Shown one piece after another: positions 4,947 through 38,605 of a stretch of 63,730 bases of DNA. A program made the position numbers and the translations under genes. Source of the DNA: an uncultured Bacteroidota bacterium. Lineage in GTDB: Bacteria > Bacteroidota > Bacteroidia > Bacteroidales > UBA12077. The DNA lies in contig CAJXLK010000026.1 in the NCBI GenBank assembly GCA_913055635.1, positions 1-63,730 on the forward strand, read 5' to 3'. How positions within the stretch are numbered: position 1 is the stretch's first letter; the number at the start of each line of letters is the position of its first letter. The notes under the pieces were generated by a model, which ran no database searches, was not told where the DNA came from, and saw only the letters and a program-made list of their open reading frames with translations.

Positions 4947-5972
4947 ATGAGTGTAAGCTTTAAAAATATGAGACCGAAACTTAATTACAGGGTATTTGCA
5001 AGGTTTTTTTGGGGGCTGGCCTCAGAGAAGGAGAAAGATCATGTGTACGGTTCGCAGGAGTCCCATCAGATGATGCGCAGGCAATGGGAAGCTGGATCGG
5101 AAGCCCCTTATGGGGAAGAATTAGTGGATGAGCTGTTTGAGCGCATCCGGCCCCGCCCATCGGCTTCCCGAAAGTCCCGTCGAATATGGCGGCCAAGGCT
5201 TGCGCGTATTGCCGCGGTGGTTTTGGTTTTCATCGGACTGGGTACGGTGACGTATTTACTGGGCTTTCATTCCCAGTTGCTGGAGCCACCGGTAAATTAT
5301 GTAGAGAAGTCCAATCCCGGGGGACAACGATCCCTTATTGTATTGCCTGATGATTCAAGGGTATGGCTGAATGCGGAGAGTTCCCTGCGTTATCCCGACA
5401 CCTTTAAGGGTCAAAAAAGGCGGGTTGTCAAATTAAGCGGGGAAGCCTATTTTGAAGTAGCTTCCCGGGGGGCGAAGGCATTTGTGGTGCGTACCAGTGA
5501 CTTATCGGTAAAAGTTACCGGCACCCGGTTCAATGTCAGGGCTTATCCGGAAGAGCAACACATTGAAACCACCCTGGTTGAGGGCCGTGTGGTGGTGGAT
5601 CCCCAGTGTGATTCGAAGGCCCGGGACCTCAAACCCGGCCACCAGGCCTCCTATTCCCGGACCCATCATGTGCTGGAAATCATCCCCGACGTCAACGTGC
5701 AGGAGAAGATTGCCTGGAAAAACGGGCGGCTGATTTTTAATAATGACCCGTTTGTTGAAGTAGCCAGGGATTTGGAACGGTGGTACGGGGTGGATATCCA
5801 TCTCTCGCCCGGATTAAAAGGAAAACATCGCTACACCATGACCATTACGGATGAAAGCCTGCGGGAAGTCTGTGAAATGCTGCGCACTACCACCCCGCTT
5901 TCCTGCACGGTTAGAAATCAAAAGGTGTATTTCTCAACGGCAGGTTCGGTGAAGGAAGAAAAAAATCATTGA
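4947..5972 (+). CDS. FecR-family anti-sigma factor
   Basis: Inner-membrane anti-sigma regulator of 341 residues. A short cytoplasmic N-terminal part (1-85) would hold the sigma factor, one membrane helix spans about 87-106, the periplasmic FecR domain covers about 128-220 (LPDDSRVWLNAESSLRYP, LSGEAYFEV, VTGTRFNVRAY, TTLVEGRV), and a C-terminal domain of the DUF4974 type covers about 265-335 (RDLERWYGVDI). In this family, substrate binding by a STN-domain SusC is relayed through FecR to an ECF sigma factor. The SusC gene follows 27 bases later, which supports pairing. No sigma gene lies upstream; the only ECF sigma in the window is at 17481. Confidence 0.93.
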   Translation: MSVSFKNMRPKLNYRVFARFFWGLASEKEKDHVYGSQESHQMMRRQWEAGSEAPYGEELVDELFERIRPRPSASRKSRRIWRPRLARIAAVVLVFIGLGTVTYLLGFHSQLLEPPVNYVEKSNPGGQRSLIVLPDDSRVWLNAESSLRYPDTFKGQKRRVVKLSGEAYFEVASRGAKAFVVRTSDLSVKVTGTRFNVRAYPEEQHIETTLVEGRVVVDPQCDSKARDLKPGHQASYSRTHHVLEIIPDVNVQEKIAWKNGRLIFNNDPFVEVARDLERWYGVDIHLSPGLKGKHRYTMTITDESLREVCEMLRTTTPLSCTVRNQKVYFSTAGSVKEEKNH

Positions 5973-5999
5973 ATGTTTTAACAATAATTCCTAATTTGT

Positions 6000-8900
6000 A
6001 TGAAGAAACATTTTTCATTCATCCCTGGCAGTTGTTCTAAATTTCTATGGTTAGCCATGCGGACAACGATATTTTTATTGCTCTTAAGTACTTTCCAGTT
6101 GTTTGCTGCCCATGATTATGCCCAGGAAAAACAGCTTTCTTTGAACCTGGAGGATGTTCCTTTGAAAGTTGCCTTAAAGCAGATCGAGCAACAGAGCCGG
6201 TTTTATTTTATGTACAATGATGCCCAGGTAGATGTGCAGCAGAAGGTAAGTGTGGATTTGGACGCACGCACTATTCATCAGGTTCTCAGTCGTTTGTTGG
6301 CTGACCGGGGCATTGCCTACCAGGTGATGGACAAACAGATTGTTCTGAAACCCGACCGCCATGATCGGCCTGCAATGATTAACCAGCAGGGCAACCCTAT
6401 TACCGGGGTGGTTACCGATGAACAAGGCAATCCATTGCCGGGGGTTAACATCACCATTAAAGGCACCACCCGCGGGGTGATCACTGATGTAGAGGGCAAC
6501 TACCGCATCGAAGTAGAGGGCGGCGACCAGGTGCTGGTCTTTTCCTTTGTAGGATACCAGAAACAGGAGATACCGGTAAAGGGGCGGGATACCCTGAATG
6601 TAACCCTGGAAAAGAAGATGGAGAAGCTGGAAGAGGTGGTGGTGATTGGATATGGTTCTTCCAGCAAAAAGTTGCTGACCAGTTCAGTGGCCAGTGTTCA
6701 GGCCGAGGACCTTGAAAATTCCATTTCATCCGGCATTGAATCTGCCTTGCAGGGGCGCACTTCCGGGGTGAACATCAACCAGAATTCAGGAACCCCGGGG
6801 GCGGCGGCAACCATTAACATCCGCGGCATTAGCTCCATATCGGCCGGAACCCAACCCCTTTATGTGGTCGACGGCATCCCTGTGAACAGCGGCAACTACA
6901 GTCAGATTAGCATGGAAGGCCAGGATATCAGTGCCATTTCCAACTTGAATCCCAATAACATCAAATCAATCAGCATCCTTAAGGATGCCTCTGCCGCTGC
7001 CATCTATGGCGCCCGTGCCGGCAACGGGGTGGTTTTGATTGAAACCAAAACAGGTTCCCAGGGAGAAACGCAGTTTAACTTCCAATCCTATTACGGCATT
7101 CAGGAAATCTACGAAAAACTGGATGTGCTCAACGCCCGGGAATGGAAGGATTATATTGTAAATTTTGAAGGGGTCAGCGACAATTTTGGCGGGCTGCATC
7201 CCAACCTGCGAAAGGAGTGGTTTGAGCAAGATAACCATACCGACTGGTTGGATCAGGTCTTTCGCAGGGCCCCGGTGCAGAATTATGAACTTTCAGCCTC
7301 CGGGGCGAAGGATAAAACCACGTTTTTTGTCTCGGGCCGCTATTTCAAACAAAAAGGCACGGTGCTGGGCACCGATTATGACAAATTCAACGGGCGGGTC
7401 AATGTCGATTACCATGTTTCCGACCAGCTCAACCTGGGGGCGAAGATCACCACCACTTACTCGGTCAACCAACGGGTAAGGGGCGATCAATCGGTCAACG
7501 GCCCCCTGCCCAACGCCGTTTCTGCCCCGCCCGTGGCCCCGGTGAAGGATAGCCTCGGCAATTATCCCCTGGCCGGATGGTGGGACAACCCCGTGGCCAT
7601 TGGCCGCGAAGTGGTCAATACCGCCGAGACTTTCCATACCATCTCCAACCTTTACGGTCAATACAATATATTGCCCCAACTGAAGCTTAAAAACCAGTGG
7701 GGTTTTGATTATTACAACCTCCAGGAACGCCGCTTTGAACCCTCCTTTGTCAAATCGGCCAAGGAGTCCAATGGCTATGGCGCCGACGGCAGTTCCAACG
7801 TCTTTAAGATCACTCAGCAAACCACCCTGAATTATATCGCCGAATTCGGCGAGAAACACAACCTGAACGTGCTGTTGGGGTATAGTTTTGAGAAATGGTC
7901 TGAGAAATACCTGTTCATGAGTGGAACCCAGTTTCCTAATAATCAGCTGCGTTATCTGGAATCTGCCGCGGTGATTGACCAGGAAGATACCCAGTCGGAG
8001 TATTTTGAATCGGGCCTGACTTCCTGGTTTGGCCGTGTCAAGTACAATTATGATAACAAATATCTTTTAACCCTGACATTGCGCCGCGATGGTTCTTCCA
8101 ATTTTGGAAAAAACAACCGCTATGCTTATCTTCCGTCGGCTTCTCTTGCCTGGCGGGCAGGAGAGGAGGACTTCATGGCCAGCCTGCCTTTTGTCAGTGA
8201 ACTGAAATTGAAAGCCAGCTATGGCCTCACCGGTAATGACGATATTGGCGCCTTTGGTTCTTTGAACCTATACAGCTCCGGTTACAATTATTATGGCCGT
8301 TCGGGCATCATTCCCACTCAAATCCCCAACCCCGATCTCAAATGGGAAACCACGGCCAATTATAATGTTGGGATCGATCTGGGGTTGTTCGATAACCGGA
8401 TACTGCTGACGGGCGATGTGTATTACAACCACACCACCGACCTTTTGCTGGCCCGTCCTGTTCCTCCCAATTCAGGCTTTACCAGTATGGATGCCAATGT
8501 CGGAGAGCTGGAAAACAGGGGCCTGGAGCTGGAACTGACCACCGATAACCTGACCGGAAAAATCAAGTGGTCCAGCAGCTTCAACATTTCATTCAACCGC
8601 AACAAAGTCCTTTCGCTTTACAACGATCAGCCCCTGACCCCGGATAACCGCGGCAATAATGCCGTATTGGTAGGTGAGCCCATTGGCGTGTTTTATATGT
8701 ATGAATCCCAGGGAGTGGATCCTTCCACCGGCCAGTTGGTGATTGAAGACGTGAACCAGGACGGCACCATCAGCGATGCCGACCGCCAGGTGGTAGGCAG
8801 CCCGCACCCTGACTTTACCGGCGGATTGTCCAATAAACTGAATTATGGCGCTTTCAGCCTCGATTTCTTCTTTCAGTTTACTTATGGCAACGAAATTTTC

Positions 8901-9305
8901 AATGGCGTGCGTCAGTATGCTGAAAATATGACCATTATCAATGACAATCAATTGACCACCGTTAAGGACCGCTGGCAACAGCCCGGCGATGAAACTTATG
9001 TGCCCAGGCTCAACGGGCGCTACAACAACGAAATTACTTCTCATTACATAGAAGATGGCTCCTATTTGAGGCTGAAAAATCTGACCTTTTCCTATCAATT
9101 GCCTGTGAACAAGATGAAGGGCCTTGATTTTATTGACCATTTCCGGATCTATGTCAGGGGCCAGAATTTGTGGACCCTGACCCCTTACAGTGGGATGGAT
9201 CCCGAGGTCAATTATGCAGGGGTAAGCAACATTACCCGGGGGGTGGATTTTTTCACCTATCCTCAGGTGCGCACTTATTCGGTGGGAATCAATATGAAAT
9301 TTTAA
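6000..9305 (+). CDS. SusC/RagA-family TonB-dependent outer-membrane transporter with STN domain
   Basis: Outer-membrane active transporter of 1101 residues. After a signal peptide (about 1-41, ending near FAAHDYAQ) comes a STN domain at about 44-118 (LSLNLEDVPLKVALKQIEQQ), the signalling domain that contacts FecR. A carboxypeptidase-regulatory-like domain follows (ITGVVTDEQGNPLPGVNITIKG, about 138-215), then the SusC region EEVVVIGYG, the plug (LYVVDGIPV, ILKDASAAAIYGARAGNGVV) and a large beta-barrel ending in an aromatic-rich C-terminus (YSVGINMKF). Length and order are normal for the family. Gene order FecR-SusC-SusD indicates a regulated nutrient uptake locus; the cargo is inferred as beta-aspartyl peptides from the downstream enzymes. 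Confidence 0.96.
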   Translation: MKKHFSFIPGSCSKFLWLAMRTTIFLLLLSTFQLFAAHDYAQEKQLSLNLEDVPLKVALKQIEQQSRFYFMYNDAQVDVQQKVSVDLDARTIHQVLSRLLADRGIAYQVMDKQIVLKPDRHDRPAMINQQGNPITGVVTDEQGNPLPGVNITIKGTTRGVITDVEGNYRIEVEGGDQVLVFSFVGYQKQEIPVKGRDTLNVTLEKKMEKLEEVVVIGYGSSSKKLLTSSVASVQAEDLENSISSGIESALQGRTSGVNINQNSGTPGAAATINIRGISSISAGTQPLYVVDGIPVNSGNYSQISMEGQDISAISNLNPNNIKSISILKDASAAAIYGARAGNGVVLIETKTGSQGETQFNFQSYYGIQEIYEKLDVLNAREWKDYIVNFEGVSDNFGGLHPNLRKEWFEQDNHTDWLDQVFRRAPVQNYELSASGAKDKTTFFVSGRYFKQKGTVLGTDYDKFNGRVNVDYHVSDQLNLGAKITTTYSVNQRVRGDQSVNGPLPNAVSAPPVAPVKDSLGNYPLAGWWDNPVAIGREVVNTAETFHTISNLYGQYNILPQLKLKNQWGFDYYNLQERRFEPSFVKSAKESNGYGADGSSNVFKITQQTTLNYIAEFGEKHNLNVLLGYSFEKWSEKYLFMSGTQFPNNQLRYLESAAVIDQEDTQSEYFESGLTSWFGRVKYNYDNKYLLTLTLRRDGSSNFGKNNRYAYLPSASLAWRAGEEDFMASLPFVSELKLKASYGLTGNDDIGAFGSLNLYSSGYNYYGRSGIIPTQIPNPDLKWETTANYNVGIDLGLFDNRILLTGDVYYNHTTDLLLARPVPPNSGFTSMDANVGELENRGLELELTTDNLTGKIKWSSSFNISFNRNKVLSLYNDQPLTPDNRGNNAVLVGEPIGVFYMYESQGVDPSTGQLVIEDVNQDGTISDADRQVVGSPHPDFTGGLSNKLNYGAFSLDFFFQFTYGNEIFNGVRQYAENMTIINDNQLTTVKDRWQQPGDETYVPRLNGRYNNEITSHYIEDGSYLRLKNLTFSYQLPVNKMKGLDFIDHFRIYVRGQNLWTLTPYSGMDPEVNYAGVSNITRGVDFFTYPQVRTYSVGINMKF

Positions 9306-9326
9306 GACCATATTAAATTTTTAGCT

Positions 9327-10697
9327 ATGAGACATTTCCTGTTCATCATACTATTGGTTGGCCTGACCACCTCCTGTGAGATACTCGATGTGGAACCAAC
9401 CGACAAGATTGCCGGGGAGACGGCGATCACTGATTTAAACGGACTGGAAGCTGCCGTCAACGGGGCTTATGACCAGATGCAGCAGGTGGGTTTTGCAGAA
9501 GATGCCGTTATATTTGGTGATCTGGCGGCCGATAACTGGATCCATGTAGGTTCAAAGAAGGAATACCGTCAGGTGGATGACAACCAGTTGATGGCCACCA
9601 ATGGTTATGTGGGCGGTATATGGAGCAGTTGTTACGACGGGATCAACCGGGTCAACAATATCCTGGTTCAGATTCCCAAACTCGATAATCTGCCCCCGCA
9701 GGTACTGGATCGACGTGAGGGGGAGTGCCGTTTTTTAAGGGCTTTGAATTACTTCACCCTGGTCAAATATTTTGGGGGTGTGCCCTTGCGGAAGGAGCCC
9801 ACGCGTTCGGCATCCAATGAAGAGTTGTTCAAACAGCGGGCTACGGTGGAAGCGACCTACCGGTTCATCATCAGCGACCTGAAGCAAGCTGAGCAATTGC
9901 TGGAAGGAGCCCCCATCAATCCTTCCATGGCCCATGCCTATGCGGCCAAAGCTTTACTGGCCCGGGTTTATCTGTATTTCAGTCAGTATGAAAACCATTG
10001 GCAGCAGGCCGCTGATAAGGCCGGCCAGGTGATTGAAAGCGGAGAGTTTGCCCTGGTCAGCGGCGACAACTATGGGGGCCTCTATGATGAGGAAACCACC
10101 AATAACGAGATCATCTTCCAAAATGATTTCTTCAATGACGATGATCAAAACGCCATTGCTGACTGGACCCGCCATGACGGCCGCCTGGAGGTGGCTGCCT
10201 GGGATACGGAGGCCCGTGAAAAAAGCATTTATCATGCCTTTCCTCCTGGCGACAAACGCCGCGATGCTACTGTCTATGAAAGCGGCGGCTCGTATTACTC
10301 CAATAAGTACGAGGATACCGGCAACGGCAAAGACAATGTCATCCTCCTGCGTCTGGCCGAGATGTATTTGATCCGGGCCGAAGCCCTGAATGAAATGGGC
10401 TATATCCCCAATGGAGGGGCATTTAAAGCTTTGAATCAAATCCGCGAGCGGGCCGGCCTTTCTAAATTTTATGCCGGGGATTTGCAGAACAAACAGCAAT
10501 TCCGCCTGGCCCTGGAACAGGAGCGGCGCCTGGAGCTGGCCTATGAAGGCCATCGCTTCTTCGACCTGGTGCGCACCAATCGCGCCGGAGAAGTGCTCGG
10601 AGATAAAGGCAACCTGGCCGACAACTCCTGGCTGTTCCCCATCCCCCAAGGTGAGATGGATACCAATGATAAAATGGAACAAAATGGCAACTATTAA
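9327..10697 (+). CDS. RagB/SusD-family nutrient-binding lipoprotein
   Basis: Surface lipoprotein of 456 residues that acts as the lid and binding protein of the adjacent SusC. A lipoprotein signal ends at the lipobox TTSC (Cys17). The N-terminal SusD region (ITDLNGLEAAVNGAYDQM), the TPR-bearing helical core (RRGE-like REGECRFLRALNYFTLVKYFGGVPL) and the C-terminal part with IRERAGL and ELAYEGHRFFDLVR are all present. It starts 21 bases after SusC, so the two are certainly cotranscribed. The ligand is not readable from the sequence. Confidence 0.96.
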   Translation: MRHFLFIILLVGLTTSCEILDVEPTDKIAGETAITDLNGLEAAVNGAYDQMQQVGFAEDAVIFGDLAADNWIHVGSKKEYRQVDDNQLMATNGYVGGIWSSCYDGINRVNNILVQIPKLDNLPPQVLDRREGECRFLRALNYFTLVKYFGGVPLRKEPTRSASNEELFKQRATVEATYRFIISDLKQAEQLLEGAPINPSMAHAYAAKALLARVYLYFSQYENHWQQAADKAGQVIESGEFALVSGDNYGGLYDEETTNNEIIFQNDFFNDDDQNAIADWTRHDGRLEVAAWDTEAREKSIYHAFPPGDKRRDATVYESGGSYYSNKYEDTGNGKDNVILLRLAEMYLIRAEALNEMGYIPNGGAFKALNQIRERAGLSKFYAGDLQNKQQFRLALEQERRLELAYEGHRFFDLVRTNRAGEVLGDKGNLADNSWLFPIPQGEMDTNDKMEQNGNY

Positions 10698-10708
10698 ATC
10701 CTTAACCT

Positions 10709-11686
10709 ATGTATGCATTGTATCATAAAAAACATCCCTACTGTTTGATATTTCCTGCCTTGCTGATTCTATTGCTCGGCGTGGCCGCCTGTGAGGACTA
10801 TACCGAAGATTATAGCGTACCCCCGGCTCAACTGGTGGCCGAGTTTTCGGTAACCCCCACCCAGAACCTTTCCCCTTCCAGTCGCATTAAGTTTACCAAT
10901 AACTCGCTGATCCCCATCCGTGTGAGTGACCCCGTGTTTCATTGGGATTTTGGCGACGGCCATGATACCACCATCACCGACTACGACCAGGTGGTGCTCG
11001 AACGCGGCGATGTGCGCCAGATCATGGACTCGGTCAAATATTCCTATGATACCGCCGGTACCTATGTGGTGGAGTTGTCCATTAGTGCCGGTAGCGGTGA
11101 TTCAGCAAGTTATACAAGAAAGCTTAACATTAACCCGTTTGGACGGGTTTTGTTTGAAGAAGATTTTGAAGACACCAACCTCATTCCTTCCGGCTGGAAA
11201 TTGGTGAATGGAGATGGCGGGACGGTTGCCAGCGGCAATGCAGCTTTTCAGAACCTCTCCGACAGTGCCTGGATCGTATGGAACAGCGGGTTGTTTGAGA
11301 GCAATGTGGCCATTGCCACCTCCTGGTACAACGAGGAAGTCGATGCCGATGACTGGATGATCACCCCGGCCATTGAACTCACCGGTACCTGTCAGCTCTC
11401 CTGGGATGCCGCCTCACTGACCACTACAGGAGATTACCCCGATGATTACCAGGTTTTTGTGTCAACCACCGACCAAACGGTACAGGGATGCCTTGATAAC
11501 GGCACCCAGCTTTATATAGACGATGAATCAACCGGCGAGGATGTTGGAGGAGAAGGCATTCAACGCCGACAGCTTAGCCTGGAAGAATTTGCCGGACAAA
11601 CCGTTTATATCGGCTTCCGGCTGGTTACCCCTTATCCCGGCGGCGACCGCCTGGGAATCGACAACATCAAAGTTATGGAACTTTAA
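10709..11686 (+). CDS. PKD-domain surface lipoprotein with choice-of-anchor J-type domain
   Basis: Lipoprotein of 325 residues. The signal peptide ends in the lipobox GVAAC. A PKD domain spans about residues 40-145 (FHWDFGDGHDT), followed by a jelly-roll domain at about 148-325 of the choice-of-anchor J or MAM-like type (FEEDFEDTNLIPSGWKLVNG, DDWMITPAIELTG, VYIGFRLV, LGIDNIKV). Such proteins are common third members of SusCD operons and usually bind substrate at the cell surface. It starts 11 bases after SusD. Its second domain resembles those of the next gene product, suggesting a shared ligand or duplicated module. Binding function is inference. Confidence 0.85.
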   Translation: MYALYHKKHPYCLIFPALLILLLGVAACEDYTEDYSVPPAQLVAEFSVTPTQNLSPSSRIKFTNNSLIPIRVSDPVFHWDFGDGHDTTITDYDQVVLERGDVRQIMDSVKYSYDTAGTYVVELSISAGSGDSASYTRKLNINPFGRVLFEEDFEDTNLIPSGWKLVNGDGGTVASGNAAFQNLSDSAWIVWNSGLFESNVAIATSWYNEEVDADDWMITPAIELTGTCQLSWDAASLTTTGDYPDDYQVFVSTTDQTVQGCLDNGTQLYIDDESTGEDVGGEGIQRRQLSLEEFAGQTVYIGFRLVTPYPGGDRLGIDNIKVMEL

Positions 11687-11806
11687 CCCATGGAACTTTT
11701 ATTTGTGGAATGCCCCCGGGCTTCCATTCAAGCATTTAATCTCCGCCTTCGTTTTACTGCGTCGGGGTAGGCATTCAATCATTTAATCATTCAAAAAACT
11801 AAGCTT

Positions 11807-14008
11807 ATGAAAAAATTACTACTTTGTACCCTGCTTCTGTCTCTGGTCGGGTTTATCCAGGCCCAGTCCATAGATGAGGATTTCAACTCAGGCATGCCCT
11901 CCGGGTGGACCACCATTGACGGAGGAGAAAATGATGGTACCTGGTATTATGAGGATGGGGGATTTGGTTTAAACGGTACCAACGCCCTTTCTATTGACAC
12001 CTATCCCGGCCCGGCCGGCGACCACCTGATCACACCCCAGTACACTGTACAGGCTGGCGATGTCGTCTCTTTCTATGCCAACTGCTCTCATACCGATTAC
12101 CGGGATAACCTTTATGTGCTGGTTTCCCATACCGGAACCGAAGCAGCTGACTTCACCGATACCATTGCCCATATTGAAGAGCTGCCCAATGATTACCAGC
12201 AATTCAAGTATGATTTGACCGCCCAGGAATTCATTGCTGGCGGCGATCAGATCTATGTTGCCCTTTATACCAATAGCGAAGGGGAATACATCAACCTGGA
12301 CAATTTTGTCATGGGGCCACCCACTGAGTTGATTTACGAGGAGTTTTCCGACAGCATCCCCGAAGGATGGACGGTGATTGATGAGGGTTCCAACATCAAT
12401 ACCTGGACCGATACCTCGGAGTTGGGGTATAATGATAGTCCTTGTCTGTGGGTCGATTGTTTTGAGAGTGGCCTGCCCAACGACGGGGCCTGCGACGACT
12501 GGCTGATTACCCCGAAGTTCAGCGTGCGCCAGGGTGATTACCTGTCTTTCTGGGGCTTTGGAGGTTATTATTCGGATGCCACCGGGGCCCTCTACGATAC
12601 CATTTTTGTGAAGATCTCCAAAACCGGGGTAGAGAAGGCCGATTTCACCATTAAGGCCGACACCGTGGCGATGACTGAAAACGATGGCTTCCAGAAGATG
12701 AGTTGGCTGCTCACTGACATTGAAAATGTAGCTGCCGGCGACCAGATCCATGTAGCCCTGCATGCCCGTTCCAATGGCTCGAAGATTTACCTGGACAATT
12801 TCCGGGTCGGCCAGTATGTACCTCCGCAATTTACCGACATCCATGCCACATCAGATACCTCTGTGGCAGTAGTCTATGATGTGCCGGTGACCGACAAGGA
12901 CCTGAATTTGCCCAACATCAAACTGCAGGGCAGCGATGGTACCCTCACCTTTGAGTCTTATCAGATTGATCCGGCCAACGACAAGGTGGTCCATTATACC
13001 GGTGCATCGGCTGCCATGAGCCCGGACAATGAAGTGGATACCCTGATCAACAGTGCGCTGGAGGATTCCATTGCTTTTTATTCAGGCATCCTGCCGCTTT
13101 CCTATGCCAGCCTGACCAATCCCGACGGGACCCTGATCAGCGACGGGCCGACTGCCACCTTCAAGGGAATCGTTACCTTCATCAACGGCATTGGCGATCG
13201 GGTATGGCTCAATGATGCTGCTGGAGCACACCATGGCATCAACACCTATCAGAGCTCCGGTGTGCTTGCCGATTCTGTAAATGTGGGCGATGAGGTGCTG
13301 GTATATGGCAGCATGAGCCCCTTTGCAAACCAAACCGAAATTTATCCGGCCGATTACCTGGCCACCCTTTCCACCGGTAATGATCTGTTCGATCCAACTG
13401 TGGTGACCGGGGCTGATATTGATTCTTCCCTGCAGGCCGATACCGACCCGGCCGAAAAATACGAGGGTACCCTCCTGCAGGTGGATAGTGCCGAAGTACT
13501 GGAATATGTCAGCGTGGAACCCAGCCAGGGCGATACCCTGCACTATTTTGTCTGCGACGATGGGGAAGGCAAATTCCTGGTAGGCGATTACTACCGATTG
13601 GATATCTATACCGGCGAGATGAGCGAGTCTACAATGGAAGTGGGTAAAAAGTACAGGATAACCGGTATACTGATTAACCGGGGTGGCGATTATATGCTGG
13701 CTCCCCGTTATGAGGCGGATATGTCAGAACAGCAGGAGCCTGTCGGAATGGAAGAAGAGGTTGGTCAACCTGCCCTGGAGGTGTATCCCAACCCGGTGGT
13801 CAATCACCTGAGGATTGAAGCCAAACAGCGGTTCGACCGCATTGTAATTTACAATGCCATAGGTCAGCGGGTTGAACAGATAGCACCCGAGGCTCGAAAG
13901 CATCTGACCCTTGATACCGGCGGCATGAAAGAAGGCGTTTATTTTATTACCTTTGAAAAGGACGGAGAGGTTCAACAAACCCGGCGGATTATCAAGCGCA
14001 GTCAATAA
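11807..14008 (+). CDS. T9SS-exported protein with two choice-of-anchor J-type domains and an OB-like domain
   Basis: Secreted protein of 733 residues. A signal peptide (ending near GFIQAQ) is followed by two similar jelly-roll domains at about 20-168 and 175-335 (EDFNSGMPSGWTTID and EEFSDSIPEGWTVIDEG mark their starts), an Ig-like segment, and an OB-like domain at about 450-640 resembling DUF5689 or nuclease-associated domains (TFKGIVTFINGIGDRVWLND). The C-terminal 75 residues form a T9SS type A sorting domain (LEVYPNPVVNHLRIE, GVYFITFEKDG). No catalytic motif was recognised. It probably binds polymer or partner enzymes outside the cell. A 120-base gap separates it from the lipoprotein gene. 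Confidence 0.82.
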   Translation: MKKLLLCTLLLSLVGFIQAQSIDEDFNSGMPSGWTTIDGGENDGTWYYEDGGFGLNGTNALSIDTYPGPAGDHLITPQYTVQAGDVVSFYANCSHTDYRDNLYVLVSHTGTEAADFTDTIAHIEELPNDYQQFKYDLTAQEFIAGGDQIYVALYTNSEGEYINLDNFVMGPPTELIYEEFSDSIPEGWTVIDEGSNINTWTDTSELGYNDSPCLWVDCFESGLPNDGACDDWLITPKFSVRQGDYLSFWGFGGYYSDATGALYDTIFVKISKTGVEKADFTIKADTVAMTENDGFQKMSWLLTDIENVAAGDQIHVALHARSNGSKIYLDNFRVGQYVPPQFTDIHATSDTSVAVVYDVPVTDKDLNLPNIKLQGSDGTLTFESYQIDPANDKVVHYTGASAAMSPDNEVDTLINSALEDSIAFYSGILPLSYASLTNPDGTLISDGPTATFKGIVTFINGIGDRVWLNDAAGAHHGINTYQSSGVLADSVNVGDEVLVYGSMSPFANQTEIYPADYLATLSTGNDLFDPTVVTGADIDSSLQADTDPAEKYEGTLLQVDSAEVLEYVSVEPSQGDTLHYFVCDDGEGKFLVGDYYRLDIYTGEMSESTMEVGKKYRITGILINRGGDYMLAPRYEADMSEQQEPVGMEEEVGQPALEVYPNPVVNHLRIEAKQRFDRIVIYNAIGQRVEQIAPEARKHLTLDTGGMKEGVYFITFEKDGEVQQTRRIIKRSQ

Positions 14009-14029
14009 GGGAGACAGCAAGCAACAGCC

Positions 14030-14062
14030 AATGATGGGGAGTTCGCTGTGCTCCCCATCATT
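14030..14062 (+). terminator. Perfect 12-bp inverted repeat between T9SS cargo genes
   Basis: Arms AATGATGGGGAG (14030-14041) and CTCCCCATCATT (14051-14062) form a perfect stem with a 9-base loop. No U-tract follows, so it may stabilise or attenuate the upstream mRNA rather than terminate fully. Confidence 0.5.
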
Positions 14063-14083
14063 GCTTAAATCAAATGGTTTTCT

Positions 14084-16087
14084 ATGAAGCGGTTTCTGCT
14101 CGTGTTTTTGTATTTTTTGAGTTGCATCAGCACCGGCCATGGCGGGTCGGGCAGTTTGTTGCTGATCGGTGGCGGCACTGAGCGGGCCGGCTTGGAAGGC
14201 TGGAATGGCAAAGCCTTTCAGTGGGCGGTGAATCAATCCGATAACCGGCGTGTGGCAGTGATCACCTTTTATCAGGGCAGTGCCACCGACTGGATGCCCG
14301 AGCATTTCGTTTGTGATTGGGGAGCCGCCGGAGCCCGCAATTTTGTCATCAATACCACCCCCGTAGCCAATGATCCTGCTACCTATGATTCGCTGATGAA
14401 CTACGATGTGTTCTACATCAAAGGAGGCAACCAGGCCGACTATTATCAGACTTATAACGATACCCGGGTGGAGCAAGCCATTGGCGATAAGTATGAGCAA
14501 GGGGGGGTGATATGTGGAACATCGGCCGGTCTTGCTATACTGGGTGAAGTGGATTTTACCGCCCTCAATGGCACGGTTTATCCCGATGAATGCCTTCAGA
14601 ACTGGGACAATCAATACGTTACCCTGGCCAATGATTTCCTGCCGGATTTGATGGCGGGAACCATCATGGACACCCATTTTGTTCAACGGGGGCGTTTTGC
14701 CCGTTTACTGGCCTTCATGGCCAACTGGCAGTTTCAAAACGGCCAGGATCTTACCGGAATCGGACTGGATGATCTGACGGCCCTGGCCATTGATTCGACC
14801 GGGATGGGCCAGGTTTATGGCACCGGATGCGCCAACCTCTATACCGGCTATTCGAATCAGCCCTTCCACCAGGAAGGCAACCGTTTCTCGGTCGACTCTC
14901 TCCGGGTCAGGCAGCTGCTTCAGGGGTGCCGCATCGATTTTTCAAAGGCTCAGGTAAGTGGTTTTGACCACCAGGCCATTCCCGAAAAAAAGCGGGAGAC
15001 ACGGGATTATTCGTTGATGTTAAGCGGCAGCAACGGGGTATCGGAAAATCAGCCATTACTTGAGCATTTGGTGCATCTCGCGGGAGGCGAACAGGATACC
15101 ATCATTGTCTTCACCGGCAAAGATGCGACACAGGCTGAAAAGTTCCGAAACGCTTTATATGGGGAAGACGCAGAGCATGTGATGGTCTATACGGCAGAGG
15201 AAGGTGCGGCGGATGATGATTTGCTGGCTCAGCGGATTCGCCAGGCCACCAAATTCGTTTTTGTCGCCAACGACCTGGATCGCCTTAAAGGGTTCATGAA
15301 GGCCGGGGGCACCGGTGATGTTTTGGCCCAACGCCTGGGCAACCCTCGCGTAACGGCTGCCTTCATAGGCGGAGATAGTCGTTTTGCAGGCCGCATCGTT
15401 GCTAAGGGTTACCTGGATCCGGGTGCCAATTACAACAGTGAGATGAGCTATTGCGCCGGATTGTCTTTGTTGCAAACCACGGCGGTGATGCCCCATACCT
15501 ATCACGATCCTCAGGTCTACGAAAATACGGCAGCCGCTCTGCCCTATGCGATGGTTCAGCATGATCTGGCCTATGGTCTTTGGCTCGCCTCGGGCGGATA
15601 TGTGCACTATACCAGCGATGGTGATCAGCTCCTGCTGAAAGCCCATGGAGATATGCCTTCAATGGTCCTGCGGAACAGAGGAACCCGCGCAGGCATTTCC
15701 CAACAAACCTCCACAGCCGATCCAGCCCAGGAACCCAGACAGGTGGCCGGCTTCAAATCGATGGATCTTACCGTTTTGAGCCCCGGCCAGCAATACCCGA
15801 TTGGACAGGTGGCCGATACCCAGGCCACTGCCCGATTCGGACCACAACAGAGCTCTGGCGGCGAACCCTTGGTCTATCAAAGCAACCAGCAACTGGTGGT
15901 GCAGTGGAAGGGGCATCGCTATGGTCTGGAATTGGTGGGGTTGGATGGTAAAGTATGGCTGCGAAAGAATCACCTTCAAAATCGTGAAGTGCTCCGTGTT
16001 AACCATCTTTCACCCAATCTGTATATCGCATTTTTATATGACCATCGATCGGGCATAAAAAAGTCGGTTAAAATGATGATCCGGTGA
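14084..16087 (+). CDS. Cyanophycinase-like (peptidase S51) T9SS-exported protein with a second degenerate domain
   Basis: Exported protein of 667 residues. After a signal peptide (about 1-20) comes a cyanophycinase-like S51 domain at about 21-290 with a conserved GGNQ motif (Gln117), nucleophile Ser147 in CGTSAG, His198 in DTHFVQRGRFAR, and GIGLDDLTAL. From about 305 to 540 a second domain of similar plan begins (LMLSGSNG, IIVFTGKDATQ), but the GTSAG position reads IGGDSRFAG and the DxHF-RxR motif is missing, so it looks non-catalytic. The last 65 residues resemble a T9SS sorting domain. Cyanophycinases release beta-Asp-Arg dipeptides from cyanophycin. The first domain has Thr197 where CphB, as I recall, has a substrate-binding Gln, so specificity may differ. 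Confidence 0.82.
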   Translation: MKRFLLVFLYFLSCISTGHGGSGSLLLIGGGTERAGLEGWNGKAFQWAVNQSDNRRVAVITFYQGSATDWMPEHFVCDWGAAGARNFVINTTPVANDPATYDSLMNYDVFYIKGGNQADYYQTYNDTRVEQAIGDKYEQGGVICGTSAGLAILGEVDFTALNGTVYPDECLQNWDNQYVTLANDFLPDLMAGTIMDTHFVQRGRFARLLAFMANWQFQNGQDLTGIGLDDLTALAIDSTGMGQVYGTGCANLYTGYSNQPFHQEGNRFSVDSLRVRQLLQGCRIDFSKAQVSGFDHQAIPEKKRETRDYSLMLSGSNGVSENQPLLEHLVHLAGGEQDTIIVFTGKDATQAEKFRNALYGEDAEHVMVYTAEEGAADDDLLAQRIRQATKFVFVANDLDRLKGFMKAGGTGDVLAQRLGNPRVTAAFIGGDSRFAGRIVAKGYLDPGANYNSEMSYCAGLSLLQTTAVMPHTYHDPQVYENTAAALPYAMVQHDLAYGLWLASGGYVHYTSDGDQLLLKAHGDMPSMVLRNRGTRAGISQQTSTADPAQEPRQVAGFKSMDLTVLSPGQQYPIGQVADTQATARFGPQQSSGGEPLVYQSNQQLVVQWKGHRYGLELVGLDGKVWLRKNHLQNREVLRVNHLSPNLYIAFLYDHRSGIKKSVKMMIR

Positions 16088-16256
16088 GGGAGATCCTCAT
16101 TAAATTGTTCATTGATATTAGCATAAAGATTTAATTGTCAGCCATCTCTCAGGATATCGGGGATGATCATTGCTTTTTGGGCGTATGATGGCTATTTGAT
16201 CATGATGTTCATTAGATGATTCAGCGATTTTATTTATTTAAACAAATACTTTCAAT

Positions 16257-17426
16257 ATGTTGGTAGTGATAGAACAGGTTTCATTGTACATGCCTGAATA
16301 CGTTGGGAAAAAGGATGTTCTCGTAGCAGCGGGTAAAATTGCAGCTGTGGAGGATAAGATTGATTTGTCTTCATTGCGGGGGGTAGATATTGATCAGGTT
16401 GATGGATCGGGCCTGGTGATGGTTCCCGGGTTGGTCGATTCACATGTACATATAGCCGGGGCAGGAGGGGAAGGGGGTCCCGCAACGCGCACCGGCGAAA
16501 TCCCGTTGAAGGAGCTTCTGGAGGCGGGGGTGAGTTCGGTGGTGGGGTGTCTCGGCACCGATGGTATAACGCGGGATGTGAGGAGTGTTTTGATGAAAGT
16601 CAAGGCCCTTCGCGAGCTGGGGTTGTCGGGATGGATGTACACCGGCGCCTACCAGGTTCCCCCTCCGTCTATAACGGGGGATTCCGCCCGGGATGTTGCC
16701 CTGATTGAAGAAGTCATCGGAGCCGGAGAAATAGCCCTATCAGATCACCGCAGCTCTCATCCCTGTGCTGATGCCTTAATCAAACTGGCCTCGGAGGTGA
16801 GGGTGGCCGGCATGCTTGCTGGTAAAGCCGGTATCATCAATGTGCATCTGGGTGATGCCCCGCATCCCTTCCAGCCCCTCTACCAGGCAGTCGAAAACAG
16901 CCAGTTGCCCCTGAAGCAGTTTTACCCAACCCACTGCAACCGAAATAACCAAATATACCTGGAGGCCAAAACATATGGCAGGAAAGGCTACCTCGACCTG
17001 ACTTCCAGCGCTTATCCCTACTTTAAGGAGGATGAGGTCAAACCCTCGCGGGCCGTGAAAGGACTCCTGGAAGCAGGTATCCCACTGGAACACATCAGCA
17101 TCTCTTCCGATGCCAATGGTTCATTGCCCGCTTTTGATGCCCGGGGCAACCTGATTCGCCTGGAAAAGGGAAAACCCAAAGCCAGCCTCCAGGAAATCAA
17201 GGATATGGTGGAACAGGAAAAAATACCCCTGGAGCAAGCCATTCAAACTGTCTCGACTACACCGGCCGCCATTCTTAAATTGAAGGGAAAAGGAAGGCTC
17301 CAACCAGGCTTCGATGCCGACGGCCTTCTGCTGGACAGGGATTTGAATATCCGTTATATGTTGGCCAATGGCAAAATGATGATCAAAGATTATCAAATCA
17401 TCCGCAAAGCCCATTATGAAGAATAA
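16257..17426 (+). CDS. iadA: Isoaspartyl dipeptidase (beta-aspartyl peptidase)
   Basis: Amidohydrolase-superfamily enzyme of 389 residues, nearly the length of E. coli IadA (390). It hydrolyses beta-aspartyl dipeptides in the cytosol; beta-Asp-Arg would give Asp and Arg. Metal ligands are His63 and His65 (DSHVH), His197 (NVHLGD), His226 (PTHCNRN) and Asp285 (SSDANGS), with the substrate-contact text GEGGPATRTGE. The bridging residue, a carboxylated Lys162 in E. coli, is Glu158 here (GEIALSDHRSS), a variant I recall from clostridial homologues. No signal peptide. It lies between the two cyanophycinase genes, which strongly suggests a role in cyanophycin dipeptide breakdown. Confidence 0.93.
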   Translation: MLVVIEQVSLYMPEYVGKKDVLVAAGKIAAVEDKIDLSSLRGVDIDQVDGSGLVMVPGLVDSHVHIAGAGGEGGPATRTGEIPLKELLEAGVSSVVGCLGTDGITRDVRSVLMKVKALRELGLSGWMYTGAYQVPPPSITGDSARDVALIEEVIGAGEIALSDHRSSHPCADALIKLASEVRVAGMLAGKAGIINVHLGDAPHPFQPLYQAVENSQLPLKQFYPTHCNRNNQIYLEAKTYGRKGYLDLTSSAYPYFKEDEVKPSRAVKGLLEAGIPLEHISISSDANGSLPAFDARGNLIRLEKGKPKASLQEIKDMVEQEKIPLEQAIQTVSTTPAAILKLKGKGRLQPGFDADGLLLDRDLNIRYMLANGKMMIKDYQIIRKAHYEE

Positions 17427-17480
17427 GTGGACGTTTGCTTCAGACCATGGGTCGGCTCATTTACCGAACCTTCAACTTGA

Positions 17481-18092
17481 TTGGATGTGAAAACACAGCG
17501 CTTAAACGACCAGATTGACCGGCAAATCGTTAGGAAACTCCGCCAGGGCGATCAGGGGGCTTTTCATCTGCTCTACCAGCAGTATGCCGGTAAAATCTTT
17601 CATTTTGCCTTGCGCTATCTGAAAACCCAAGAAGATGCCGAAAACCTGACCCAGGATATCTTTTTGAAAATCTGGGAAAACCACGAGACCTTGAATCCTG
17701 ACCTTTCGTTGAATGCTTATATCTTCACGATCACCAAGAATACCATTTTTAATCAAAACCGGAAAAAAGTCAATGAGCAGTTGTATCTCAGCGACATGAA
17801 AGAGTACCTGGACAGTTGTATTGGTCGTACCGAAAACGATATATTGTTGAATGAGGTGAAAAATATGATTGATCAGGCGATGGATCAGCTTCCGCGAAAA
17901 AGGAAGAAGATTTTCCGGTTAAGTCGGTTTGAATGCCTTTCTCATCGCGAAATAGCCCAGCAGATGAATATTTCGGAAAAGACGGTGGAGGCGCACATTC
18001 GTCTGGCCCTTAAATCAATACGTTCTTTTTTGAACCGAAACATGAGTCTTATCCTCCTGTGGTGCATTGCATTGGCCAGGAGCCTTTTCTGA
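17481..18092 (+). CDS. ECF (FecI-like) RNA polymerase sigma factor
   Basis: Sigma-70 family ECF factor of 203 residues. Region 2 is at about 25-95 (LYQQYAGKIFHFALRYLKTQEDAENLTQDIFLKIWE), region 4 at about 130-185 (LPRKRKKIFRLSRFECLSHREIAQQMNISEKTVEAHIRLALKSI is split here by helix-turn-helix text), with the short hydrophobic tail often seen in Bacteroidota FecI-like factors. The predicted start is TTG at 17481. It sits 54 bases after iadA instead of upstream of FecR, the normal place. It is the only sigma gene in the window, so it is the likely partner of the FecR at 4947, which would regulate its activity by protein contact. Confidence 0.92.
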   Translation: MDVKTQRLNDQIDRQIVRKLRQGDQGAFHLLYQQYAGKIFHFALRYLKTQEDAENLTQDIFLKIWENHETLNPDLSLNAYIFTITKNTIFNQNRKKVNEQLYLSDMKEYLDSCIGRTENDILLNEVKNMIDQAMDQLPRKRKKIFRLSRFECLSHREIAQQMNISEKTVEAHIRLALKSIRSFLNRNMSLILLWCIALARSLF

Positions 18093-18115
18093 TGGAAGTT
18101 AACCCCGCTTTGACT

Positions 18116-18275
18116 ACCCCGCTTAGCGGGGTAAAATACCCCCGCTTAGCGGGGTAAACCCATGACCACCCCGCTAAGCGGGGTCAGTTTAGCAGAAGGG
18201 TAAGCTAATTCCAATAATGACCCCGCTAAGCGGGGTCAGTTTAGCAGAGGGGTAAGCTAATTCCAATATTATACT
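18116..18275. repeat. Palindromic repeat array B
   Basis: Four palindromes of the array A type: 18116-18132, 18140-18154, 18168-18184 and 18220-18236. The last two, with GCTAAGC cores, head a direct repeat of 52-bp period that runs from ACCCCGCTAAGCGGGGT through CAGTTTAGCAGA and GGGTAAGCTAATTCCAATA. The array occupies the 213-base gap between the ECF sigma gene and the lipoprotein cyanophycinase gene. It may separate two transcription units. Confidence 0.85.
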
Positions 18276-18305
18276 GATTTTGAATCGTAAAAAGTCTTAA
18301 CAGAA

Positions 18306-19214
18306 ATGAAAAGATTGGAGAGAAAATATGCCGTGCTACCCGTTCTAATTGTGCTGATGTCTCTGCTGGTGTGTTGCTCTGATCAGGGGAGTACTGGTTC
18401 GGCCGGCGAAAATGAAACAGCAGCCAAAGGCAAACTATTTATTATAGGAGGGGGTGACCGGCCGGCGCCGATGATTAAAAATCTGATCGAAATTGCCGGG
18501 GTTGATTCGGCCGGATACATTGTTATTCTGCCCATGTCGAGCTCAGCACCTGATACATCGGCCTACTATGCAAAGAAACAATTCACCGAACAAGGGATTG
18601 ACAACATTCACACTTTCAACCTTCAATCGGAGCAACAGATGAAGCCATCAGTAATGGATTCGGTGGTGGATGCTGGTTTGATCTACATGACGGGAGGCAA
18701 TCAGAATCGTTTCATGGAAATTGTGAGAGATACGGAGTTAGAGCGTCAAATAAGGGCGGCTTATCAGCAGGGAAGCGTTATTGCAGGCACCAGTGCCGGG
18801 GCAGCGGTAATGAGTGAACTGATGATCACCGGGGATGAGCGCAAACACCCGGAATATACCGGTAATTTCCGGACCATCGAGGCGAATAATATCATTCTCG
18901 AGTCCGGGCTGGGTCTGATCAGTCAGGCAATTATCGATCAGCACTTTATAAAGCGGATGCGTATGAATCGATTGATTTCCGCCTGCCTGGAACATCCCGG
19001 TAAGGTTGGTGTCGGCATTGACGAGGCCACAGCCATCCTGGTTGAGGGCAACAGGGCAAAAGTTTACGGGGAGGGCCAGGTGATGGTTTTGCGTACGATG
19101 AATCAAGAAGTCATCATTAAAGAGGGTTTGTTGGGGGGGCAATTTTCCACGGCCATATATTTGCCCGGTCAGCAGTTTTCAATTCAGCCCTCAAAGAGCA
19201 AAGGGGCGGGGTAG
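18306..19214 (+). CDS. Cyanophycinase (peptidase S51), lipoprotein
   Basis: CphB-like serine hydrolase of 302 residues with a lipoprotein signal (LLVCC, Cys23 or Cys24) that would anchor it in the envelope. Nucleophile Ser163 lies in AGTSAG, His213 in DQHFIKRMRMNR and Glu240 in GVGIDEATAI. Comparing with what I recall of CphB (Ser132, His174, Glu201; substrate contacts Gln101, Asp172, Gln173, Arg178, Arg180, Arg183), the equivalents Gln133, Asp211, Gln212, Arg217, Arg219 and Arg222 are all present with the same spacing. This makes true cyanophycin hydrolysis to beta-Asp-Arg the best reading. It is longer than cytosolic CphB only by the signal and linker. It follows the ECF sigma gene after a palindrome array. 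Confidence 0.88.
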   Translation: MKRLERKYAVLPVLIVLMSLLVCCSDQGSTGSAGENETAAKGKLFIIGGGDRPAPMIKNLIEIAGVDSAGYIVILPMSSSAPDTSAYYAKKQFTEQGIDNIHTFNLQSEQQMKPSVMDSVVDAGLIYMTGGNQNRFMEIVRDTELERQIRAAYQQGSVIAGTSAGAAVMSELMITGDERKHPEYTGNFRTIEANNIILESGLGLISQAIIDQHFIKRMRMNRLISACLEHPGKVGVGIDEATAILVEGNRAKVYGEGQVMVLRTMNQEVIIKEGLLGGQFSTAIYLPGQQFSIQPSKSKGAG

Positions 19215-19580
19215 CAATAGGGACATCGCCCCTGGACTGGCCAGGAAAATCATGGTACTGATAAGAGGAAAACAGGTTTCCGCTTCAAAACCAACATTGA
19301 TTGGCTCCATCAGGGCCTGTTGCCCCAAAAGTCAGCAAGTTAGACATTACCCCTGGAACAAAGCCAATATTGAATTAACTCGTTAATTAATGTTAGTCAG
19401 TATGTTAGAAACGTTCAACTTGTCTTTGAAACAAGACAATTCATTGTTTGATGTGCCAGTTCCCTGTAATCCAAAACTTTATCAAGGTCGATATGACCTC
19501 TGGAACAAAACTTTTGTAGATTCATGTCCACCCGCAAAAATCTATTATTTTTAAGCCCCTTTAATTAAAATGTGGTGTAT
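19215..19580. other. Intergenic region before the YfcC gene
   Basis: Gap of about 365 bases without a recognisable gene. It contains a small inverted repeat TTGTCTT/AAGACAA near 19420-19440 and an AT-rich stretch before the transporter start. No clear TAnnTTTG site or U-tract terminator was seen. Confidence 0.4.
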
Positions 19581-21182
19581 ATGGCCAAAAAAGTCAAAGT
19601 TCCCCATACTTTTGTCATCATCTTTTTTATCATCGTTATCGGTGCGCTGTTAACCTGGTTCATTCCAGGCGGTGAGTATGAGCGTGAAGTGGTGATGGAC
19701 AATGGCGTAAAGCGGGAGGTGGTAAAGAGCGGATCTTTTGAATATACCCAGAACGATCCCCAGACCTGGCAGGTTTTTTCCTCGCTTTATCATGGATTCA
19801 TTTCGAAGAGCAACATCATTGTTTTCATATTGATGGTAGGGGGTGCTTTTTGGATCATGAATGAAAGCCGGGCCATTGATGTGGGCATTTTTTCTTTTTT
19901 GCGTTTCACCCGCAAGCTGGAGTCCAACCGGGTGATCAAGGCCCTGGGGGTGGATAATATTGTGATTGCATTGATCATGCTGATGTTCAGTTTGTTTGGT
20001 GCGGTCTTCGGCATGAGTGAAGAGACCATTGCTTTTGTAATCATTTTTGTGCCCCTGTCAATCTCCATGGGGTATGATTCGATTGTCGGGGTATCCATGT
20101 GTTTTGTAGCAGCGGGCCTGGGTTTTGCCGGGGCCATGCTGAATCCCTTTACCATTGGCATTGCTCAGGGATTGGCCGATATACCCCTGTTTTCGGGCAT
20201 CGAATACCGTTTCTTTACCTGGGTGGTCTTGAACATCGTAGGCATAACTTATGTGCTGGGTTATGTGAAGAAGCTGCGGAAGGATCCCACCCGCTCGCCG
20301 GTATATGAAGATGATGCCCAATGGCGTGACAGCAGCCGGCAAGACGTGGAAAAGATCGAATATACCCGACCTGTTTCAGCCTGGATCACCTATTTTATTA
20401 TCCTGGCCGGATTGATCATTTTTTCCTTCCAATATGCCATGACCACCCTTGAGATTGGCAACAGCAGTTTCCAGATGCCAATTGTGCCTGTGCTGACCGG
20501 TCTTTATGCCATAACCGCCTTTATGGGTCTGAGACGCTCGGTTCATTTTTATATTTTGAATTTGCTTTTGTATACCATCCTGTTTTTGATTGTTGGTGTA
20601 ATGGGCTATGACTGGTACATTATGAAGATCGCCACCATTTTTATGGCCATGGGCATTTTTGCCGGCATTGCCTATAATGAATCGGGCAACAACATTGCCC
20701 AGTTGTTTCTTAAGGGGGTGAAGGATATGATGACTGCAGCCATTGTGGTAGGCCTGGCCGGTGGCATCGTGTTTCTTTTGGACCAGGGCAATATCATTGA
20801 TACCCTGTTGCATTACATGGCTGAAGGGATGGAAGATGTTGGCAAAGTTGGATCGGTTGGGGTGATGTATGTTTTCCAGACCCTGTTGAACATCCTGATG
20901 CCCTCTGGTTCAGGCCAGGCTGCCCTGACTATGCCCATTATGGCACCTTTTTCCGATTTGATCGGGATATCCAGACAAACAGCCGTGTTGGTTTTCCAAT
21001 TCGGCGATGGTTTCACCAACATGATCACCCCCACCTCGGGTGTGCTGATGGGGGTTTTGGGCATGGCCAAAATTCCCTATGACAAATGGTTCCGTTGGTT
21101 TATTCCTTTCCTGGGCATTCTGGTTTTGGTGGGCATTCTCCTTTTAATCCCCACCGTGCTGATGGATATTGCCGGGTTTTAG
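19581..21182 (+). CDS. YfcC-family amino-acid or C4-dicarboxylate carrier
   Basis: Inner-membrane carrier of 533 residues with about 12-13 hydrophobic segments. Typical features of the YfcC/DcuC-type family are PHTFVIIFFIIVIGALLTWFIPGGEYER at the start (cut here by family variation), FGMSEETIAFVIIF in the middle, and NILMPSGSGQAALTMPIM plus FGDGFTNMITPTSG near the end. Members have been linked to basic amino acids, peptides or dicarboxylates, and the substrate cannot be fixed from sequence. I chose ATG 19581 over GTG 19572 because MAKKVKVPHTFV is the normal family start. As the last gene of the locus it could exchange arginine, ornithine or aspartate. It converges on folD. Confidence 0.85.
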   Translation: MAKKVKVPHTFVIIFFIIVIGALLTWFIPGGEYEREVVMDNGVKREVVKSGSFEYTQNDPQTWQVFSSLYHGFISKSNIIVFILMVGGAFWIMNESRAIDVGIFSFLRFTRKLESNRVIKALGVDNIVIALIMLMFSLFGAVFGMSEETIAFVIIFVPLSISMGYDSIVGVSMCFVAAGLGFAGAMLNPFTIGIAQGLADIPLFSGIEYRFFTWVVLNIVGITYVLGYVKKLRKDPTRSPVYEDDAQWRDSSRQDVEKIEYTRPVSAWITYFIILAGLIIFSFQYAMTTLEIGNSSFQMPIVPVLTGLYAITAFMGLRRSVHFYILNLLLYTILFLIVGVMGYDWYIMKIATIFMAMGIFAGIAYNESGNNIAQLFLKGVKDMMTAAIVVGLAGGIVFLLDQGNIIDTLLHYMAEGMEDVGKVGSVGVMYVFQTLLNILMPSGSGQAALTMPIMAPFSDLIGISRQTAVLVFQFGDGFTNMITPTSGVLMGVLGMAKIPYDKWFRWFIPFLGILVLVGILLLIPTVLMDIAGF

Positions 21183-38484: not shown

Positions 38485-38605
38485 ACCCCGCTAAGCGGAC
38501 CTCCGCTAAGCGGGGTCGGGATGCAATTGGTAGGAACCCCGCTAAGCGGACCCCCGCTAAGCGGGGGTAGGAACCCCGCTAAGCGGGGTCGGGATGCAAT
38601 TGGGT
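38485..38605. repeat. Palindromic repeat array C with 73-bp tandem duplication
   Basis: Five copies or partial copies of the GCTAAGC-type palindrome: 38485-38498, 38499-38516, 38536-38549, 38550-38568 and 38573-38589. The text CGGGGTCGGGATGCAATTGG occurs at 38511 and at 38584, an offset of 73 bp. The array lies between convergent lptD and the GNAT-like gene, and the last unit contains the stop codon of the GNAT-like gene. Confidence 0.85.

Follow-up and report, generated by a model that had tools for sequence, protein, structure and literature searches.

The window analysed here, a stretch of 63,730 nucleotides from an uncultured Bacteroidota bacterium (Bacteroidales, UBA12077; contig CAJXLK010000026.1, positions 1 to 63,730), carries a ten-gene locus at positions 4947 to 21182 that very probably serves the scavenging of cyanophycin, the nitrogen-storage polymer of cyanobacteria. 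All ten genes lie on the plus strand within 16 kb, with intergenic gaps of 11 to 357 bases, and gene calls together with family scans confirmed the positions and arrangement given by an earlier annotation made from the letters alone (hereafter the sequence-only reading). From first to last, they encode a FecR-type anti-sigma factor (4947-5972; PF04773 and PF16344, FecR 64 bits); a SusC/RagA TonB-dependent transporter with an STN domain (6000-9305; TIGR04056 908 bits, cut-off 368; STN 34.9 bits); a SusD-type surface lipoprotein with a cysteine, seen by eye, after its hydrophobic N-terminus (9327-10697; PF07980 112.9 bits, PF14322 96.4 bits); a probable surface binding lipoprotein with PKD and choice-of-anchor-J domains (10709-11686; NF038128 80.9 bits, PKD_4 slightly below cut-off, N-terminus lipoprotein-like by eye); a probable secreted binding protein with two choice-of-anchor-J domains and a sorting tail of the type IX secretion system (T9SS) (11807-14008; NF038128 and TIGR04183 both above cut-off); a long protein of family S51 (14084-16087; PF03575); an isoaspartyl dipeptidase, IadA, presumed cytosolic as no signal peptide was seen (16257-17426; TIGR01975 441 bits, cut-off 331); an extracytoplasmic function (ECF) sigma factor (17481-18092; TIGR02985 162.5 bits, cut-off 126.4); an S51 cyanophycinase lipoprotein (18306-19214); and an inner-membrane carrier of the DcuC family (19572-21182, possible ATG start at 19581). 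The adjacency of the SusC (TIGR04056) and SusD (PF07980) genes marks the pair as a SusCD importer.

The families named in the sequence-only reading stood for FecR, SusC with its STN domain, SusD, IadA, the ECF sigma factor and the S51 lipoprotein, and the two proteins it had described as of a binding type were resolved into the PKD/anchor-J lipoprotein and the double anchor-J protein with a T9SS tail. Two of its labels call for qualification: the score of the long S51 protein does not reach the cyanophycinase cut-off (TIGR02069, 70.4 versus 126.6 bits), and the carrier, a DcuC family member (PF03606, 344 bits), stays below the cut-off for the YfcC basic amino acid antiporter (NF008611, 379 versus 500 bits) and is therefore only called YfcC-like here.

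The S51 lipoprotein exceeds the cyanophycinase equivalog cut-off (TIGR02069, 166.5 versus 126.6 bits). In an alignment with Synechocystis CphB (reference 3en0, residue numbers being chain numbers minus 20), its Q133, S163, D211, Q212, H213, R217, R219, R222 and E240 pair with CphB Q101, S132, D172, Q173, H174, R178, R180, R183 and E201. All nine CphB residues checked, which we take to be the nucleophilic serine, the catalytic histidine and glutamate, and the glutamine, aspartate, glutamine and three arginines of the substrate pocket, are kept in this protein and are invariant in all seven aligned rows. Each of the seven rows also has a cysteine behind a hydrophobic N-terminus (by eye), as lipoproteins should have.

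The long S51 protein appears, in structure models, to consist of tandem cyanophycinase folds. Pfam detects a single S51 stretch in it and misses the second fold. An AlphaFold2 model of the whole protein (14 sequences; mean predicted local distance difference test score, pLDDT, 81.3), compared using VIA-align, places a first domain at residues 23-294 (14150-14965) with Z-scores of 23.4 to the cyanophycinase 7uqv and 23.0 to 3en0; it carries a GTSAG elbow with Ser147, followed by His198 and Asp229/Asp230, and an aspartate aligned with CphB E201. A second S51 fold is modelled at residues 306-575 (14999-15808; Z 14.5 to dipeptidase E). As the matches of the whole model were dominated by its tail, this domain was folded separately (pLDDT 88.7), and its best match was then a cyanophycinase (Z 25.6 to 7uqv and 25.2 to cyanophycin-bound 7uqw, root-mean-square deviation 2.5-2.7 over 240-246 residues; Foldseek E 1e-14). 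Sequence-profile support for this domain is weak (hhalign probability 61%, E 8e-5). The second fold is probably inactive, since the GTSAG nucleophile motif present in the first domain of all 14 rows is found in the second domain of none, the residue aligned by hhalign with the catalytic histidine is itself a histidine in the window copy only (one row of 14), and no counterparts of the CphB arginines are visible in it by eye. A serine in a G-x-[DN]-[SA]-[RK] stretch of this domain (Ser in 12 of 14 rows, Ala in two) was considered as an alternative nucleophile and rejected, being unpaired both in the hhalign alignment and in strand positions. The degenerate domain may hold the polymer or form an internal pseudo-dimer with the first.

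Residues 592-667 (15857-16084) form a probable T9SS-type C-terminal domain, matching those of RemA (8gl6, Z 9.8) and NucA (8glk, Z 9.4) in a tie with DUF3244 Ig-like domains (Z 9.9-10.3). Export of the long S51 protein by T9SS is plausible from sequence, because SprA of this system is encoded in the genome (2788 bits) and a Pfam T9SS tail is found in five of nine long S51 rows, the window copy not being among them; its signal peptide was recognized by eye only.

Conservation of the locus was examined at two depths. A first contig search with the long S51 protein as sole query gave no match. Among 98 genomes (the window's own and 97 relatives), the long S51 protein has matches at E <= 0.001 in 22, the window's own counted, most of them weak; seven relatives reach E <= 1e-100. 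Twelve stretches from ten matching genomes were compared: six (G007, G014, G037, G044, G048 and G056) have SusC, SusD, S51 and IadA within a single stretch of some 20 kb, G034, at a contig edge, has SusD, both S51 proteins, IadA, the sigma factor and the carrier, and the stretches of G055, G059 and G063 have S51 only. In G007, nine of the ten genes occur in identical order, and fecR would fall outside the examined stretch. A wider comparison drew on named records and took the best 80 out of at least 361 loci that encode a relative of the S51 lipoprotein. Of these 80, 54 have SusC and SusD genes paired on the same strand, 42 have the carrier, 36 have another S51 protein matching the long one and 15 have IadA; four loci have the S51 lipoprotein, the pair, the carrier, IadA and the long-type S51 together. 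Full flanks were available for 50 loci for counts of the pair and, under a different rule, for 53 for counts of dipeptidase and carrier; the pair occurs in 39 of the 50. Thirteen of the 36 long-type proteins have the full double length, and many others are of about 430 residues with a single S51 domain, both of the two scanned having a Pfam T9SS tail. The hosts include Bacteroidales, Flavobacteriaceae, Fulvivirgaceae, Cyclobacteriaceae, Cryomorphaceae and one Balneolaceae record, among others, and in an even sample of the phylum the S51 lipoprotein was found at E <= 1e-50 in 22 of 392 genomes, the window's counted.

As a control, 12 more distant S51 loci were taken, ten from relatives and two from the window's genome, several of them on short contigs (L156, L160, L163 and L165 among them). 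None has SusC, SusD or the carrier, and five have the cyanophycin synthetase CphA, which at the same threshold occurs in none of the 80 S51 lipoprotein loci. Cyanophycinases for storage and for scavenging thus reside in different neighbourhoods. The recurrence of SusCD pairs beside S51 and IadA genes, for which the sequence-only reading had suggested looking across Bacteroidota, is seen for the pair in 54 and for IadA in 15 of 80 loci, as against no SusCD in the 12 control loci.

In eight relatives with a strong match to the S51 lipoprotein (E <= 1e-60), seven SusC candidates per genome were scored; in six of the eight, the best SusC match found is encoded within about 12 kb of the S51 lipoprotein gene on the same contig. 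The two exceptions are G034, where the contig edge precludes the test, and G006, where the best SusC match lies elsewhere. The S51 lipoprotein gene of G006 (L134, G006:C20:45000-64900) is interrupted by an in-frame stop, lacks a neighbouring SusCD and looks like a decaying copy. In a tree of 77 SusC rows obtained by a quick method, in which linked rows are the SusCs of the 80 loci that aligned over more than 800 residues and 20 unlinked ones were chosen by hand (ten from the window's own genome), the window SusC falls within a clade of 39 S51-linked SusCs (Shimodaira-Hasegawa-like approximate likelihood ratio test, SH-aLRT, 99) containing none of the 20 unlinked rows. S51 linkage changes six times on this tree, versus 17.8 times when labels are shuffled.

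IadA is the only match of its kind in the genome, in which no plant-type asparaginase (IaaA) was found. Its metal ligands His63, His65 and Glu158 align with H68, H70 and K162 of Escherichia coli IadA, glutamate thereby replacing the carboxylated lysine. The corresponding E159 is a zinc ligand in IadA of Leucothrix mucor, which belongs to a cyanophycin cluster (PMC10206079). Elsewhere, other enzymes seem to take its place. Clustering of neighbours revealed an IaaA family of plant-type asparaginases/beta-aspartyl peptidases (PF01112) at 15 of the 80 loci and, at 14, an exported M20 protein akin to carboxypeptidase G2, each label resting on one scanned representative and the clustering; an export signal was seen by eye in the M20 rows and not in the IaaA rows or the window IadA. 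No locus has two of the three kinds within 9.5 kb, and 37 of 80 have none. Among the 53 full-flank loci, the carrier accompanies IadA in six of ten, IaaA in nine of ten, M20 in none of 14, and occurs in eight of the 19 loci that have none of the three. This pattern, 15 of 20 with the cytosolic kinds versus none of 14 with exported M20 (Fisher test, 1e-5, relatedness ignored), suggests that the carrier supplies a cytosolic enzyme with imported beta-Asp-Arg and is dispensable if the dipeptide is cleaved before reaching the cytoplasm. We regard it as a lead only, because the M20 family is common in genomes lacking this S51 protein: 44 of the 392 phylum genomes have an M20 relative (E <= 1e-60) and one of these also has the S51 lipoprotein (E <= 1e-50), so that the family as a whole was discarded as the dedicated beta-Asp-Arg dipeptidase that flavobacteria seemed to lack. 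In that sole genome, G323, the two genes are adjacent, and only the nearest M20 subgroup (identity 75% in G323 and no more than 59% in other rows) may be tied to cyanophycin. The M20 peptidases (L068 10880-12199 and 13 further loci, mostly Flavobacteriaceae) also show a weaker likeness to the poly(aspartic acid) hydrolase 7ljh. For the carrier, no solved relative was found by sequence at E <= 0.001, and no literature joining cyanophycin with YfcC was found in the limited paper collection searched. A search for arginase gave a single weak match (21.9 bits, or 23.7 together with its neighbours; cut-off 22).

The following scheme is proposed for the locus, in which the substrate, the side of the outer membrane faced by the S51 lipoprotein, the cargo of the carrier and the regulation are inferred. 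The double-fold S51 protein, probably exported by T9SS, and the S51 lipoprotein would cut extracellular cyanophycin into short chains or beta-Asp-Arg, helped by the PKD and anchor-J binding proteins. SusD would capture the products and SusC import them across the outer membrane, powered by TonB; the YfcC-like carrier would then move beta-Asp-Arg across the inner membrane, and cytosolic IadA would split it into aspartate and arginine. The STN domain of SusC, FecR and the ECF sigma factor would turn the locus on. Surface cutting, SusCD uptake and cytosolic completion by IadA were already suggested in the sequence-only reading, and are supported by the active-site residues, the conserved neighbourhoods and the SusC clade. 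It is tempting to speculate further, though we hold this only tentatively, that a distinct lineage of Bacteroidota SusC proteins is devoted to cyanophycin; that in part of the loci a tandem cyanophycinase exported by T9SS uses its degenerate second fold to hold or feed the polymer, in the way of a carbohydrate-binding module; and that the last step is interchangeable, being carried out either by cytosolic IadA or IaaA with a YfcC-like importer of beta-Asp-Arg, or by an exported M20 enzyme that makes the importer unnecessary.

The organism probably stores cyanophycin as well as scavenging it, since its genome has a separate CphA-S51 pair. On contig C4, CphA (1219 bits, cut-off 850) is encoded divergently from another S51 gene, in a cluster (L131 5100-12609) that also includes an ATP-grasp gene and, directly downstream of cphA, an S15/CocE-type hydrolase. 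Both this cluster and the window locus thus have a gene of the cyanophycinase family, but the C4 protein is 31% identical to the S51 lipoprotein and adjoins cphA, and SusCD and carrier are absent within the stretch searched. Genes with a weak likeness to cocaine esterase beside cphA1 and cyanophycinase have been described as possible isoaspartyl dipeptidases, those of Bacteroidota being undiscovered according to the same paper (PMC10206079); the hydrolase on C4 is a candidate beta-Asp-Arg hydrolase of Bacteroidota storage clusters. Neither the synthetase, which lies outside the window, nor the second fold of the long S51 protein had figured in the sequence-only reading. Contig C34 encodes yet another S51 protein (L132 7233-8171), away from SusCD and CphA; it has a GSSAGA elbow and, probably, a signal peptide.

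Systems of this kind are already described: the statement in the sequence-only reading that no SusCD locus for cyanophycin was known is contradicted by the "cyanophycin utilization locus" published in 2017 for strain L21-Spi-D4, Salinivirga cyanobacteriivorans, of a Bacteroidetes clade according to the title as cited (Ben Hania et al., Environ Microbiol 19:1134, via PMC10206079). Like the window locus, this Bacteroidota strain has a pair of S51 proteins, of which one bears a Por (T9SS) secretion domain (PMC6243061). Unlike loci for glycans, the window locus includes no glycan enzyme among its ten genes, as judged by family scans, and its predicted cargo is a polyamide. Its general layout is otherwise that of polysaccharide utilization loci, which have an STN-bearing SusC, SusD, surface lipoproteins, an ECF sigma/FecR pair, an exported depolymerase and a cytosolic finishing enzyme. 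The abstract of the 2017 description reportedly likens the transport complex to, as homologous with, that of polysaccharide utilization loci. Outside the phylum, a TonB-dependent receptor adjoins a cyanophycinase gene, as in the window, in Citromicrobium JLT1363, presumably an alphaproteobacterium, for which reason no SusCD pair is expected there. Cyanophycin uptake was predicted for this receptor in 2012 from the neighbourhood (PMC3400609). What the present case adds is some new anatomy, namely the tandem-fold S51 protein (no literature search was aimed at it), the separate CphA-S51 pair and the variation in dipeptidases with its carrier pattern. The one published Bacteroidota locus for a non-glycan polymer is thereby extended to a recurring gene set, from which the recycling of a major nitrogen store of cyanobacteria could become predictable from genomes, and the role of the degenerate cyanophycinase fold and the identity of the beta-Asp-Arg importer are raised as specific points.

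Several observations weigh against an assignment to cyanophycin. Besides its score below the cyanophycinase cut-off, the long S51 protein has Thr197 in place of CphB Q173, a position that is Ser or Thr in all nine aligned rows. The full combination is found unevenly, pair, IadA and carrier standing together in six of 80 loci only; 11 of the 50 loci with full flanks lack the SusC-SusD pair, and IadA occurs in two of the 12 control loci. As 18 of the 57 linked SusCs lie outside the window's clade, ten of them in a second clade, and long branches are numerous in the tree, as the tool warned, SusC may have been recruited more than once, or some of these neighbours may be incidental. The nearest solved relatives of the window SusC, which are 8aa4, then 5t3r, then RagA of Porphyromonas gingivalis (7e-100), do not indicate its cargo. 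Cyanophycinase and dipeptidase genes are clustered in 45 of 52 genomes that have both and lack cphA1, and the scavenging clusters described there are of such genomes, whereas the window's genome has cphA (PMC10206079). IadA and IaaA each act on a wide range of beta-aspartyl dipeptides (PMC10206079), so that neither is evidence specific to cyanophycin. The locus could instead take up other beta-linked or acidic peptides, such as isoaspartyl-rich ones from aged protein, with the S51 proteins drifted to another exopeptidase specificity in a family that includes peptidase E-type enzymes, and with SusCD acting like RagAB. RagAB is a SusCD-type importer of ordinary oligopeptides, and we know of no S51 or IadA genes beside it. 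We consider such a function unlikely, as a locus for peptides in general would not be expected to have two separate S51 proteins and the S51 lipoprotein both exceeds the equivalog cut-off and keeps every checked CphB residue.

Use of the bacterium's own cyanophycin, released from lysed sister cells, in place of the cyanobacterial polymer is suggested by the CphA-S51 pair of contig C4. It seems very improbable as the purpose of the locus, the exported system and CphA being on different contigs and CphA absent from the 80 related loci (the loci, not whole genomes, having been searched), and it is in any case compatible with, rather than exclusive of, use of the cyanobacterial polymer. Finally, SusC is common, with 12 proteins above cut-off in this 4.08 Mb genome, so a SusCD pair might meet peptidase genes by chance; at that density the probability of a SusC in a 20 kb stretch is about 0.07, as against pairs in 39 of 50 full-flank loci and no SusC at the 12 control loci, and coincidence is hardly credible unless biased sampling accounts for these counts. 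Scavenging of cyanophycin is accordingly the reading that we prefer.

A Bacteroidota-type promoter pattern has four matches in the window (2.75 expected), none of them within 4947-21182, a sigma-70 promoter scan gave 24 hits, close to the 20.8 expected by chance, and an Rfam search gave no match at gathering scores. On the opposite strand, 3' of the locus, lie genes for tetrahydrofolate dehydrogenase/cyclohydrolase and SRP54. A minus-strand protein upstream (2466-3260), with a tetrapyrrole-methylase-like match slightly below cut-off (27.4 versus 27.8 bits), is probably an ordinary S-adenosylmethionine methyltransferase. The palindrome CCCCGCTTAGCGGGG has 24 matches in the window on both strands with at most two mismatches, versus 0.04 expected, and clusters at 1599-1703, 18117-18235 and 38486-38588 in the manner of a repetitive extragenic palindromic (REP)-like element; the second cluster lies between the sigma factor and S51 lipoprotein genes, where a hairpin of 18 pairs is possible.

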